From the NCBI RefSeq assembly GCF_002094305.1, contig NZ_LWTX01000003.1:186001-250000 (forward strand): a DNA stretch of 64,000 bases. The letters run 5' to 3'. A model generated the notes under the pieces. That model was not told the DNA's origin. It worked only from the letters and a program-made list of their open reading frames with translations, and did no database searches. This document shows, in pieces, positions 6,528-9,146 of the stretch. A program made the position numbers and the translations under genes. Each line of letters opens with the position of its first letter. Position 1 is the first letter of the stretch. The stretch comes from Prescottella equi (GTDB taxonomy: Bacteria > Actinomycetota > Actinomycetes > Mycobacteriales > Mycobacteriaceae).

Positions 6528-7790
6528 ATGATTCGCACCGACCCCACCTCCCGACGCCTCACCCTCGCCGCGTCCGTCGCGACGTGCGCGGCCCTGCTGG
6601 CGGGCTGCTCGGGTACCGACGACGGCACCACCACCGCGACCGCCGCAGCGGCCGCGGGCCCCGAGTCCACCACCGCCAAACCCGCGCAGGCTCGCTCCGC
6701 GACACCTCGACTGGCCGTCACCTACGACGGCGGCATCCTCGTACTCGATGCCGAATCGCTCTCGCTGGTGGGCGAAACCGAGCTGGCCGGGTTCAACCGG
6801 CTCAACCCGGCCGGCGACGAGCGGCACGTGATCGTCTCCACCGAGGACGGCTTCCGTGTGCTCGACACCGGGGCTTGGTCGGAGGCGCACGGCGACCACG
6901 CGCACCACTACACCGCCGCGCCCGCCCTCACCGACGTCACGTTCGACGCGGACAAGCCCGGCCACGTCGTGCGGCACGCGGGCCGCACCGTCCTGTTCGA
7001 CGACGGCACCGGACGCGTCGACTCGTTCGACCCGAGCACCCTCGCCGACGGCAAGCCACAGACCACGACGTTCACCACCCCGGTCGCGCACCACGGCGTC
7101 GCCGTCGAACTGGCCGACGGCGGACTCGTCACCACGCTCGGCGACGCGAAGACCCGCACCGGCATCGTCGTCTACGACGCCGCCCGCACCGAGATCGCCC
7201 GCAGCGAGCAGTGCCCGGGCGTGCACGGCGAGGCCGTCGCCGCCGACGAGACCGTGGTGTTCGGCTGCCAGGACGGCCTGCTGATCTACCGGAACGGCGC
7301 GATCACCAAGGTCACCAGCCCCCACCCGTACGGGCGGATCGGCAACCAGGCCGGCTCGGAGGAATCGACCGTCGTGCTCGGCGACTACAAGAGCGACCCG
7401 GACGCCGACCTGGAGCGTCCGACGCGGGTGTCGCTGACGAACACCGTCACCGGCGAGCTGCGCCTGGTGGACCTCGGCACCAGCTACACGTTCCGGTCGC
7501 TCGGCCGCGGCGCGTTCGGCGAGGCCCTGGTCCTCGGCACCGACGGCGCGCTGCACGTACTGGACCCGAACTCCGGTGCCACGATCCGCACGATCCCGGT
7601 ACTCGACCCGTGGACCGAGCCGGAGGAGTGGCAGACGGCCCGGCCGGCGCTGTTCGTGCAGGGCTTCACCGCGTACGTGACCGATCCGGCCACCAACCGG
7701 ATCCACGCCGTCGACTACGAGAAGGGCCAGGTCACCACTACCGCCGAGCTGCCGCACACCCCCGACGAGATCACCGGTGTGCGCGGCTGA
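6528..7790 (+). CDS. aztD: AztD-like zinc metallochaperone lipoprotein
   Basis: 420 residues. The N-terminal signal ends in the lipobox LLAGC, so the protein is membrane-anchored outside the cell. The body looks like a beta-propeller with repeated short strands (GGILVLDAESLSLVGET, DGFRVLDTG). HGDHAHHY at about 125-132 is the His-rich zinc site expected of AztD, a periplasmic chaperone that hands Zn2+ to the AztC binding protein of the AztABC importer. The Zur-like box at its promoter supports zinc regulation. No aztABC genes are in the window, so the partner transporter must be elsewhere. The alternative is an unrelated WD40-like lipoprotein. Confidence 0.75.
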   Translation: MIRTDPTSRRLTLAASVATCAALLAGCSGTDDGTTTATAAAAAGPESTTAKPAQARSATPRLAVTYDGGILVLDAESLSLVGETELAGFNRLNPAGDERHVIVSTEDGFRVLDTGAWSEAHGDHAHHYTAAPALTDVTFDADKPGHVVRHAGRTVLFDDGTGRVDSFDPSTLADGKPQTTTFTTPVAHHGVAVELADGGLVTTLGDAKTRTGIVVYDAARTEIARSEQCPGVHGEAVAADETVVFGCQDGLLIYRNGAITKVTSPHPYGRIGNQAGSEESTVVLGDYKSDPDADLERPTRVSLTNTVTGELRLVDLGTSYTFRSLGRGAFGEALVLGTDGALHVLDPNSGATIRTIPVLDPWTEPEEWQTARPALFVQGFTAYVTDPATNRIHAVDYEKGQVTTTAELPHTPDEITGVRG

Positions 7791-7805
7791 GGTTCACCCG
7801 GAGGG

Positions 7806-7835
7806 TTGCGTGTTCCCGGGAGTCGCGCTTAGACT
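7806..7835 (+). promoter_or_regulatory. Promoter of the leader-peptide transcript
   Basis: TTGCGT (7806-7811) and TAGACT (7830-7835) are 18 bp apart. The transcription start should fall at or just before the leader ATG at 7844, so the leader ORF would be translated from a leaderless 5' end. Confidence 0.55.
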
Positions 7836-7843
7836 CCTCGGTC

Positions 7844-7888
7844 ATGCAGCGCATCCAGGTAGTAGTTCACCGCCGTAGCGGGGTCTGA
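7844..7888 (+). CDS. Leader peptide MQRIQVVVHRRSGV
   Basis: A 14-codon ORF whose start lies 8 nt after a TAGACT -10 element. Codons 6-8 are GTA GTA GTT; in this DNA valine is almost always GTC or GTG, so three A/T-ending valine codons in a row look like deliberate ribosome-pausing control codons. An isoleucine codon (ATC) is also present. The last five codons and the stop lie inside the left arm and loop of hairpin 1 of the attenuator. Its role would be to sense charged tRNA-Val supply for the downstream LeuA-domain gene. Confidence 0.6.
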   Translation: MQRIQVVVHRRSGV

Positions 7889-7959
7889 TTCGGACCGACC
7901 CCTCGCTGCGGGTCGTTGAGCTATCCACCTGTCGGTCCTTCCTTCACTTCAGGAAGACC
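7873..7959 (+). promoter_or_regulatory. Translational attenuator (mutually exclusive hairpins)
   Basis: Hairpin 1 pairs CCGTAGCG-GGGTC (7873-7885) with GACCC-CT-CGCTGCGG (7897-7911). Hairpin 2 pairs GGTC-TTCCT (7934-7943, one bulge) with AGGAAGACC (7951-7959), burying the only Shine-Dalgarno (AGGAAG) of the gene at 7967. GGACCGAC (7892-7899) is exactly complementary to GTCGGTCC (7931-7938), so an alternative pairing excludes both hairpins and frees the ribosome site. A ribosome paused on the valine codons (7859-7867) would cover the left arm of hairpin 1 and favour the ON state. Confidence 0.65.
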
Positions 7960-7966
7960 CCCGAAA

Positions 7967-8440
7967 ATGCGCACCTCCCAGGCTCTCGCCACCACCACGT
8001 TCTCGAACGATCCGTTCTTCCAGCGTTTCGGCGCCCACCTGCCGCGTGACCTGCGCGCCCAGGCCCAGGGTCTGAGCTGGACCGAGTTCGCCCAGCGTTT
8101 CAGCCCCACCGGCGGCCCGGTCCGCCTGGGCAGCTGGACGTCGGAGCACCTCGGCGCCGGTCGGCACACGTTCACCGCCACCCTCGGGCTCGGCGACCGC
8201 ATCTCGTCCGCCTCGGCGACCGCCACCGGACCCATCGCGGCACTGACGTCGATGCTGTTCGACGCCGGTTTCCAGCTCGAGATCCTGTCGTTCCACCAGC
8301 AGCGCACGTCGGAGGGCACCGCGACGTTCATCCTCGCCGAGCACGACGGCGAGCGCCGCTGGGCGATGGCCATCGCCGAGGACTGCAACGCGTCGGCGCG
8401 GGACGCGATCATCGCGGCCGCCAATCTGCTGCATCGCTGA
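7967..8440 (+). CDS. Stand-alone LeuA allosteric (regulatory) domain-like protein
   Basis: 157 residues. From about residue 50, LGSWTSEHLGAGRHTFTATL, GDRISSASATATGPIAALTS and LEILSFHQQ follow the pattern of the C-terminal regulatory domain of 2-isopropylmalate synthase (LeuA dimer domain), which binds leucine. No catalytic TIM-barrel is attached. It may sense a branched-chain amino acid or modulate a full-length LeuA in trans. ATG 7967 is supported by AGGAAG at 7951-7956, which is sequestered in the upstream RNA hairpin. Regulation by a valine-rich leader peptide fits a branched-chain amino acid role. Confidence 0.7.
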   Translation: MRTSQALATTTFSNDPFFQRFGAHLPRDLRAQAQGLSWTEFAQRFSPTGGPVRLGSWTSEHLGAGRHTFTATLGLGDRISSASATATGPIAALTSMLFDAGFQLEILSFHQQRTSEGTATFILAEHDGERRWAMAIAEDCNASARDAIIAAANLLHR

Positions 8441-8525: not shown

Positions 8526-9146
8526 ATGTCTGCCACCAGGAAGCTCACCGCCGGACTGTTCGCTGTCGCCGCCGCCGCGGCAGTCGCCACCGCCGCGCCC
8601 GCCGCGGCCCAGCCCACCGGTTCCGCCGATCTGTGGCAGCCGCTCGCCCCGATCCCGTCGCTGGACGTCGCCCGCTACGCCGGCACGTGGTACCAGCTGG
8701 CGGCCGTCCCGCAGCCGTTCAACCTGGACTGCGCGCGCGACACCCGCGCCACCTACGGCGTGCTCGACGCGTCGAACGTCAGCGTCAACAACTCCTGCAC
8801 CACGTGGAGCGGCGGCACCAACGGCATCGTCGGCAATGCCCGCGTCAACGATCCGGTGACCAATGCCCAACTGCACGTGAGCTTCCCGTCGGTGCCGTTC
8901 CAGAACTCCCCCGACGGCCCCACCAACTACGTCGTCACGTACCTGGCCGACGACTACTCGTGGGCCTTCGTCGGCGACCCGGCCCGCGTCTCCGGTTTCG
9001 TGCTCTCGCGCACGCCCGCGGTGAGCGCCGAGGGCTGGCAGCAGATCCGCAGCGTCGTCGAGTCGCGCGGCTACAACTCGTGCCTGGTGCTCACCTCGCC
9101 CACCACGGGAGGGCGGTCCGACATCGCCCCGCTCTGCACGGTCTGA
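8526..9146 (+). CDS. Secreted lipocalin family protein
   Basis: 206 residues. A Sec signal peptide (about 1-29, ending AAPAAAQP) precedes the lipocalin signature YAGTWYQLAAVPQPF at about residues 51-65, with ATYGVLDASNVSVNNSC and YVVTYLADDYSWAFVG further on, as in bacterial Blc-type lipocalins. These are beta-barrel binders of small hydrophobic ligands. Four cysteines could form disulfides outside the cell. ATG 8526 has GGAAGGA 5 nt upstream and is preferred over the longer frame from 8493. It is probably a single-gene unit, ending at a long hairpin. Confidence 0.85.
   Translation: MSATRKLTAGLFAVAAAAAVATAAPAAAQPTGSADLWQPLAPIPSLDVARYAGTWYQLAAVPQPFNLDCARDTRATYGVLDASNVSVNNSCTTWSGGTNGIVGNARVNDPVTNAQLHVSFPSVPFQNSPDGPTNYVVTYLADDYSWAFVGDPARVSGFVLSRTPAVSAEGWQQIRSVVESRGYNSCLVLTSPTTGGRSDIAPLCTV

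Follow-up and report, generated by a model that had tools for sequence, protein, structure and literature searches.

A predicted valine-type paralogue of the actinobacterial LEU element precedes a gene encoding a LeuA-type regulatory domain on its own in Prescottella equi

A 64,000-nucleotide stretch of Prescottella equi DNA (hereafter the window, meaning the whole stretch that was analysed) carries, in front of a gene for a detached LeuA-type regulatory domain, a region that, judged from its sequence, is homologous to the elements of leuA and represents a valine-type paralogue of the LEU element of Actinobacteria. According to the reading that we prefer, to which we give a probability of about 0.65, a ribosome stalled for want of valine or other branched-chain amino acids frees the Shine-Dalgarno (SD) sequence, and the gene for the regulatory domain is then translated. 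This reading builds on the homology to leuA elements, the conservation of the region, covariation in hairpin 1 (H1) and in the pairing of two short arms (B and C), the masking of the SD in the computed fold, and an exchange of leucine for valine codons in the same register. The features concerned, all on the forward strand, are as follows.

7806-7835, + strand: promoter-like sequence, TTGCGT (7806-7811) and TAGACT (7830-7835) with an 18 nt spacer; read from the sequence
7844-7888, + strand: leader ORF of 14 codons, MQRIQVVVHRRSGV and a stop; read from the sequence, with the stop conserved in relatives
7859-7867, + strand: Val codons GTA GTA GTT, codons -9 to -7 before the stop, in the register of LLL in leuA leaders
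7862-7869 (Val codons) paired with 7917-7924, + strand: base stem H0, which extends the base of hairpin 1; MFE fold and pairing in relatives
7873-7885 paired with 7897-7911, + strand: hairpin 1 (H1), stop codon in the loop; MFE fold and covariation against leuA-type elements
7892-7899, + strand: B arm, GGACCGAC, partly in the H1 loop; pairs with the C arm
7931-7938, + strand: C arm, GTCGGTCC; able to pair with B and, alternatively, with sequence at the SD
7934-7943 paired with 7951-7959, + strand: hairpin 2 (H2), which masks the SD GGAAG (7952-7956); -10.1 kcal/mol
7967-8440, + strand: gene for a stand-alone LeuA_dimer-type domain of 157 aa; Pfam, AlphaFold and Foldseek

This anatomy of leader ORF (ATG at 7844, stop TGA at 7886-7888), Val codons, two hairpins, SD and next ATG at 7967 had been outlined in a preliminary description of the DNA, and both the window sequence and the minimum free energy (MFE) fold bear it out. 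The MFE fold of 7844-7990 (z = -3.57; 0 of 200 shuffles equally stable) contains hairpins 1 and 2 plus the base stem H0 with the Val codons. H0, in which these codons are directly paired, was absent from that description. The Val codons themselves are indeed unusual, as had been claimed, because GTA (4) and GTT (3) together make up just 7 of the 112 Val codons in five ORFs of the window.

The -10-like TAGACT sits 8 nt upstream of the leader ATG. In 88 of the 108 distinct relatives, and likewise in 37 of 40 leuA types, a TANNNT motif lies 5-9 nt 5' of an in-frame start; the background is 1.6-2% per random position, and several starts were tried per row. A strict sigma-70 scan gave no match. We place the start of the RNA at or adjoining the leader ATG, and the leader is thus probably leaderless. 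Among the 108 distinct leader rows, which were derived from 133, the stop stands right behind codon -1 in 107 (TGA in 105, TAA in 2). At locus L066, the usual stop has changed to TGG and an in-frame TGA follows two codons further on; at this locus the script detected no stand-alone LeuA ORF downstream. Two leaders read by eye, L012 and L016, are shifted and end at a TAG within the 5' arm of hairpin 1 (MKRMKLVFRP and stop in L012), with the usual TGA retained. The peptide ends of the two classes are alike, with CGC AGC GGG GTC TGA here and CGC GAC/GGC GGG GTC/GCC TGA in leuA types.

The kinship with leuA elements is evident within the genome itself. Model R1, built from 61 window-type elements, scored 95.8 bits for the window, 41.0 bits for the leuA element and 34.4 bits for the element of a second LeuA-like gene (C6). 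The leaders of the three are MQRIQVVVHRRSGV (window), MQRALLLGCRGGV (leuA) and MTFRGLLLGRRGGV (C6), each followed by a stop, and VVV of the window and LLL of the other two fill identical codons, -9 to -7 before the stop. The C6 element, the third of the family (L058, G000:C6:261668-261753; leader MTFRGLLLGRRGGV and stop), precedes a 604-aa full-length LeuA-like ORF. Across genomes, the leuA-type triplets at these codons (n = 40) are LLL in 38, FLL in 1 and IIL in 1; this set goes back to 42 candidates, two of them from the own genome, of which L164 and L169, having no LeuA-like gene, were excluded, and it includes L173, although no long downstream frame was found for that locus. The window-type triplets (n = 108) are LVV (59), VVV (11), VVA (11), ALV (9), VLV (5), LLV (3) and ILV (3), with AVV (2), SSY (2, the frame-shifted leaders) and FLV, FVV and VVT (1 each) as the rarer forms. 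Codons -10 to -7 of the window-type leaders include V in 106 of 108 and L in 85 of 108, and their Val codons are GUA 170 times, GUU 34 times, GUG twice and GUC once. The earlier proposal of valine sensing therefore keeps its Val codons, but valine alone is too narrow a signal, as LVV occurs in 59 of the 108 leaders and L in 85.

The LEU element has been described upstream of leuA in Actinobacteria, with leucine codons, a pseudoknot and an SD base stem (Seliverstov et al., 2005; PMC1262725). R1 matches leuA-type elements, and H1 and the B:C pair occur in both classes, the pseudoknot being putative here. However, a leucine run there corresponds to Val or Leu-Val codons in window-type leaders; the base stem there joins codons and SD, whereas the Val codons here pair with the linker; and leuA lies downstream there, a stand-alone regulatory domain gene here. 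A leader codon:SD stem like that of leuA was considered and rejected, the longest helix being 4.79 in 107 window-type rows versus 5.07 after shuffling; the figure for the leuA types is 5.95 versus 5.01 (39 rows). Since three LEU features failed (codons, codon:SD stem and gene), we call the region a paralogous variant and not a strict LEU element. Searched with Rfam, including its T-box and riboswitch models, the window gave 0 matches at the gathering score, and under relaxed settings just one weak miRNA match (15.9 bits versus a gathering score of 80).

Pairing was then assessed stem by stem in the relatives. H0 has a mean of 8.85 pairs per relative versus 5.55 with shuffled linkers, and at least 5 pairs in 103 of 108. 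In a fixed register, 56.2% of its cells are paired versus 36.6-44.6% in slid registers, a value that is not higher because the register shifts between lineages. H1 is paired in 99.5% of cells over the 61 rows of alignment A1 (71 scripted core loci minus 11 duplicates and minus L069 and L073, plus L024, L026 and the window), and its covariation score within the class equals that of the shuffles. The hairpin and much of its loop (7886-7896) are near-invariant in sequence, beyond what pairing needs. Between the classes, pair 7877:7907 is A-U in 38 of 38 window-type rows and G-C in 38 of 39 leuA types, a difference that may be a single event, the counts being uncorrected for relatedness. The linker from H1 to the C arm measures 13-23 nt across the 108 rows.

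The complementarity of GGACCGAC and GTCGGTCC, pointed out in the preliminary description, is present, conserved and marked by compensatory changes in relatives. In the 61-row alignment, 94.0% of B:C cells are paired versus 88.1% after shuffling, and double-change cells number 24 versus 8.1, a count reached by 0 of 500 shuffles. With the leuA types added, 89.1% are paired and double changes number 47 versus 24.1; this alignment (A5) joins 38 of the 61 A1 rows to 39 of the 40 leuA-type rows, L173 being left out, and rows such as L140, L141, L143 and L156, which appear shifted at the C arm, were retained. Pairing is less consistent at the ends of the helix: of the 61 rows, 11 lack the pair 7892:7938 and 14 lack 7899:7931, and the outermost, 7892:7938, fails in 39 of 77 rows when leuA types are included. 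Compensatory changes include G-C to U-A at 7892:7938 in genus g9 and A-U to G-C at 7898:7932 in genus g22 and in leuA types; the counterpart of B:C in genome G045 is GGACTAAC:GTTGGTCC. Counted per sequence, 7/7 pairs are formed in 93 of 108 distinct relatives, 6 in 12 and 5 in 3, compared with 7/7 in 1.2% of the shuffled control (best of 31 positions); these pairing counts ignore the relatedness of the rows. The conserved core and the compensatory changes in the pairings identify the region as a genuine conserved RNA element.

The C arm has a further partner beside the SD. The 3' strand of H2, GACC (7956-7959), is a repeat of the B motif, and 95 of 107 relatives have a GACC in the stretch that separates the C arm from the start codon, versus 13.1% in shuffles; it mostly stands 5-8 nt upstream of the start codon (16 nt in 15 rows). 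With GACC next to the SD and B upstream, the C arm thus has two alternative partners. The contiguous helix between C arm and SD is barely longer than in shuffles (5.57 versus 5.09; 104 rows), and the GACC count is the better measure of H2. The SD-masking hairpin with an exclusive alternative partner, as proposed earlier, was accordingly recovered by the fold and by the GACC and B:C counts in relatives. We also observed that GGGGTCT of hairpin 1 (7880-7886) is complementary to AGACCCC behind the SD (7955-7961); the two are paired in one fold.

The protein encoded downstream, of 157 aa, matched Pfam PF08502 with 23.4 bits (E = 5.9e-5), slightly below the cut-off of 24.9, and 16 of 22 aligned family members (A2) matched it at E ≤ 0.001 (best, 5.6e-8). 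An AlphaFold2 model from an alignment of 21 sequences (the window protein and 20 relatives) reached a pLDDT of 90.8. With this model, the top Foldseek match was LeuA of M. tuberculosis (3fig_B; E = 8.8e-10, TMq 0.77), and 8 M. tuberculosis LeuA chains were found at E ≤ 1.3e-8 with TMq 0.75-0.77. From the model and its matches, the protein is predicted to have the C-terminal regulatory fold of isopropylmalate synthase without the catalytic domain, in agreement with the LeuA-type domain named in the preliminary description; leucine binding is putative. The same genome also encodes leuA (C11) and the 604-aa LeuA-like ORF (C6). The closest named relatives are from Rhodococcus and Prescottella.

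The searches covered genomes of the family and of the class. The core AGCGGGGTCTGATTCGGACCGACCC (≤3 mismatches) is present in 201 of 401 family genomes and 13 of 31 genera, and its reversed control pattern gave 0 among the rows listed. The stand-alone gene is found in 14 of 14 genomes of the genus, own genome included, and inspection of the first 30 loci by eye showed a LeuA_dimer-like ORF of the stand-alone kind behind the element in 29, the exception being L066. Both tools were applied to 42 family genomes: in 37, R1 matched strongly (E ≤ 1.1e-13) directly beside the gene on the same strand, 4 are without element and gene, and in G045 the gene is accompanied by a divergent element missed by R1. 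When 148 genomes sampled from the class were searched at E 1e-15, the stand-alone gene (frame <300 aa) turned up in 9, all of the own family, and the other matches listed fall in frames of at least 575 aa. R1 matches, counted on their own, occur in 50 of these 148 genomes, many outside the family. In the genomes sampled, the valine-type element together with the detached domain is confined to one family. No match was found in the plasmid records searched.

Genus g3, inferred to be Corynebacterium, has a match to the stand-alone-type gene in 70 of 121 genomes at E 1e-20. Its leaders differ, being of the ILIRVAKATNPGGG type with CGAGTAGCGAAGGCTACG (L212-L231), and end in GGGRQD or TYPAAG before the stop. 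A leader together with 8/8 B:C pairs, e.g., GGACTAAC:GTTGGTCC, is present in 16 of the best 20 loci, a count that takes the best of many positions, has no shuffled control and includes some near-identical loci. Genome G021 has a second stand-alone-sized frame (175 aa, L210) and another match inside a 263-aa frame; the upstream stretch inspected for L210 holds no matching leader.

We propose the following mechanism, which would act at the level of translation. The RNA would begin at or adjoining the leader ATG. By default, its Val-codon stretch would pair with the linker behind H1, H0 and H1 forming one long hairpin, and the C arm would pair with GACC beside the SD (H2), which would keep the gene off; because the long hairpin would hold C away from B in its loop, C would take GACC. 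When valyl-tRNA is short (in most relatives, leucyl-tRNA too), a ribosome held at the GTA/GTT codons would occupy H0, and the linker released in this way would allow B:C pairing, which would probably take the form of a pseudoknot spanning what is left of H1 and precede transcription of the SD, so that H2 would be blocked and the stand-alone regulatory domain made. A ribosome at the leader stop, on the other hand, would cover the 5' arm of H1 and B, and C would therefore go to H2. The geometry appears to allow this: with H0 in place, few nucleotides would be left to span the long hairpin, and without it the linker could reach the loop. That the response is switched on in starvation is suggested by the order of the arms and by analogy with leuA and ilvB leaders.

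In nested equilibrium folding, the full RNA forms H0, H1 and H2 with the SD masked (H2 0.79). When the RNA is free from 7866 or 7872, H0 drops to 0.24 or 0, respectively, and H1 (0.77-0.85 from 7872) and H2 remain; when it is free from 7876 or 7878, H1 is replaced by other pairings, with B:C at 0.03-0.04 and H2 at 0.85-0.86. Over the range 7872-7878 the SD hairpin stays at 0.80-0.86. With RNA free from 7880, B:C rises to 0.52 and H2 stands at 0.62; in this state AGACCCC, located 3' of the SD, is paired with the 5' arm of H1. In a transcript that ends at 7948 and so lacks the SD, B:C reaches 0.92 only with free RNA starting at 7884-7892, which corresponds to a ribosome some codons past Val. The preliminary description had held that a stall at valine opens hairpin 1 and thereby frees the SD; as nested folding leaves B:C at 0.03-0.04 and H2 at 0.80-0.86, this simple form of the switch is unsupported by the calculation. 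Since nested folding has no on-state at the Val stall, the on-state would require the pseudoknot or a kinetic trap. Because the GTA codons are at the same time part of H0, pairing and codon choice are inseparable; retention of GTA in leaders lacking a pairing partner offers little contrast, since a complement of some kind, G-U allowed, is present in 78 of 85 linkers.

Three other explanations were weighed against valine-type attenuation at the SD. The RNA could mainly be a protein-binding site, with the leader peptide secondary or merely keeping the RNA open; a helicase-domain protein has been proposed for LEU elements (PMC1262725), and H1 with much of its loop is near-invariant over 61 rows, more than a plain hairpin needs. 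Under that explanation, however, it would be hard to see why the leader stop is kept in the same place in 107 of 108 rows, even through a change from TGA to TAA, why the leader codons are class-specific (LLL versus LVV/VVV) along with the downstream gene, and why a -10-like motif is positioned at the leader start, and we regard it as unlikely. It is quite improbable, in our estimate, that the region works by transcription attenuation of the ilvB type, in which the position of the ribosome picks between terminator and anti-terminator. Actinobacterial ilvB leaders do bear LVV-type runs like those of window-type leaders (that of C. diphtheriae is MNIIRLVVITTRRLP), but a scan of 7750-8050 (loops 3-8 only) gave no intrinsic-terminator-like site, no T-run of that kind stands behind either hairpin in the window sequence, and H2 covers the SD, with GACC adjoining in 95 of 107 relatives.

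A nascent peptide (R-R-S/D/G-G-V/A-stop) that arrests the ribosome at the stop could also control the folding irrespective of amino acid supply. The similar peptide ends of window-type and leuA-type leaders speak for such an arrest, but the leaders of genus g3 end differently, and the codons concerned form part of the 5' arm of H1, whose structure accounts for them; we consider this explanation very improbable. Valine-type attenuation at the SD remains the reading that we favor.

Leaders of several known systems resemble the present one. The LeuL1 leader of Streptomyces lividans leuA (PMC8079986) and the leuA leaders of C. glutamicum (PMC4046766, PMC3890552) and C. diphtheriae (PMC5784534) likewise are short leaders before a gene, that of S. 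lividans being reported as leaderless and lacking a typical terminator, but they contain leucine runs and are followed by catalytic leuA. The ilvB1 attenuator of M. tuberculosis (LVVI with GUA as regulatory codon; PMC13236596) shares the sensing codons L-V-V, with GUA in a leader ORF, with window-type leaders; it differs in having a terminator and anti-terminator, a different RNA and the ilvB1 operon. The same paper also mentions that cysteine genes of M. smegmatis are subject to translation attenuation; these and candidate cysteine uORFs (PMC4633059) provide a mycobacterial example of a leader ORF acting at the translation level, with cysteine codons and other genes.

The preliminary description had taken a valine-sensing, SD-masking attenuator before a LeuA-type domain to be new. 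The architecture is not, because a leader peptide, pseudoknot and SD pairing are already on record for LEU elements (PMC1262725), and two relatives reside in the same genome; the new part is the valine-type leader joined to a gene for a stand-alone regulatory domain. Our literature search, in which subscription journals and preprints were thinly covered, returned no paper that describes a stand-alone LeuA domain, a valine leader of this kind or the two combined. One genome holds related elements that precede related proteins and differ at matching codons, LLL in some and VVV in another. This amounts to a natural codon-swap experiment, which bears on whether leader codons matter in LEU elements: PMC1262725 leaned against leader translation and cites experiments in which codon changes in the Streptomyces leuA leader did not behave as classical attenuation. 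Moreover, a conserved gene for a detached LeuA-type regulatory domain, on which we found no study, carries here a built-in clue to its trigger.

Valine and leucine synthesis branch at 2-ketoisovalerate. A tentative and rather doubtful extension is a valine-sensing brake on leucine synthesis: when valyl-tRNA is scarce, the switch would let the free domain be made, which would pair with LeuA and slow it, and 2-ketoisovalerate would be returned to valine. In that case the family would have copied a leucine attenuator, swapped its Leu codons for Val codons and joined the result to a free allosteric domain.

The surroundings of the element in the window are as follows. Directly upstream, at 6528-7790, lies a 420-aa ORF whose N-terminus looks secreted or lipoprotein-like by eye and for which Pfam gave no match. 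Directly downstream of the regulatory domain gene, at 8526-9146, is a gene for a Lipocalin_2 family protein (E = 9.6e-40).
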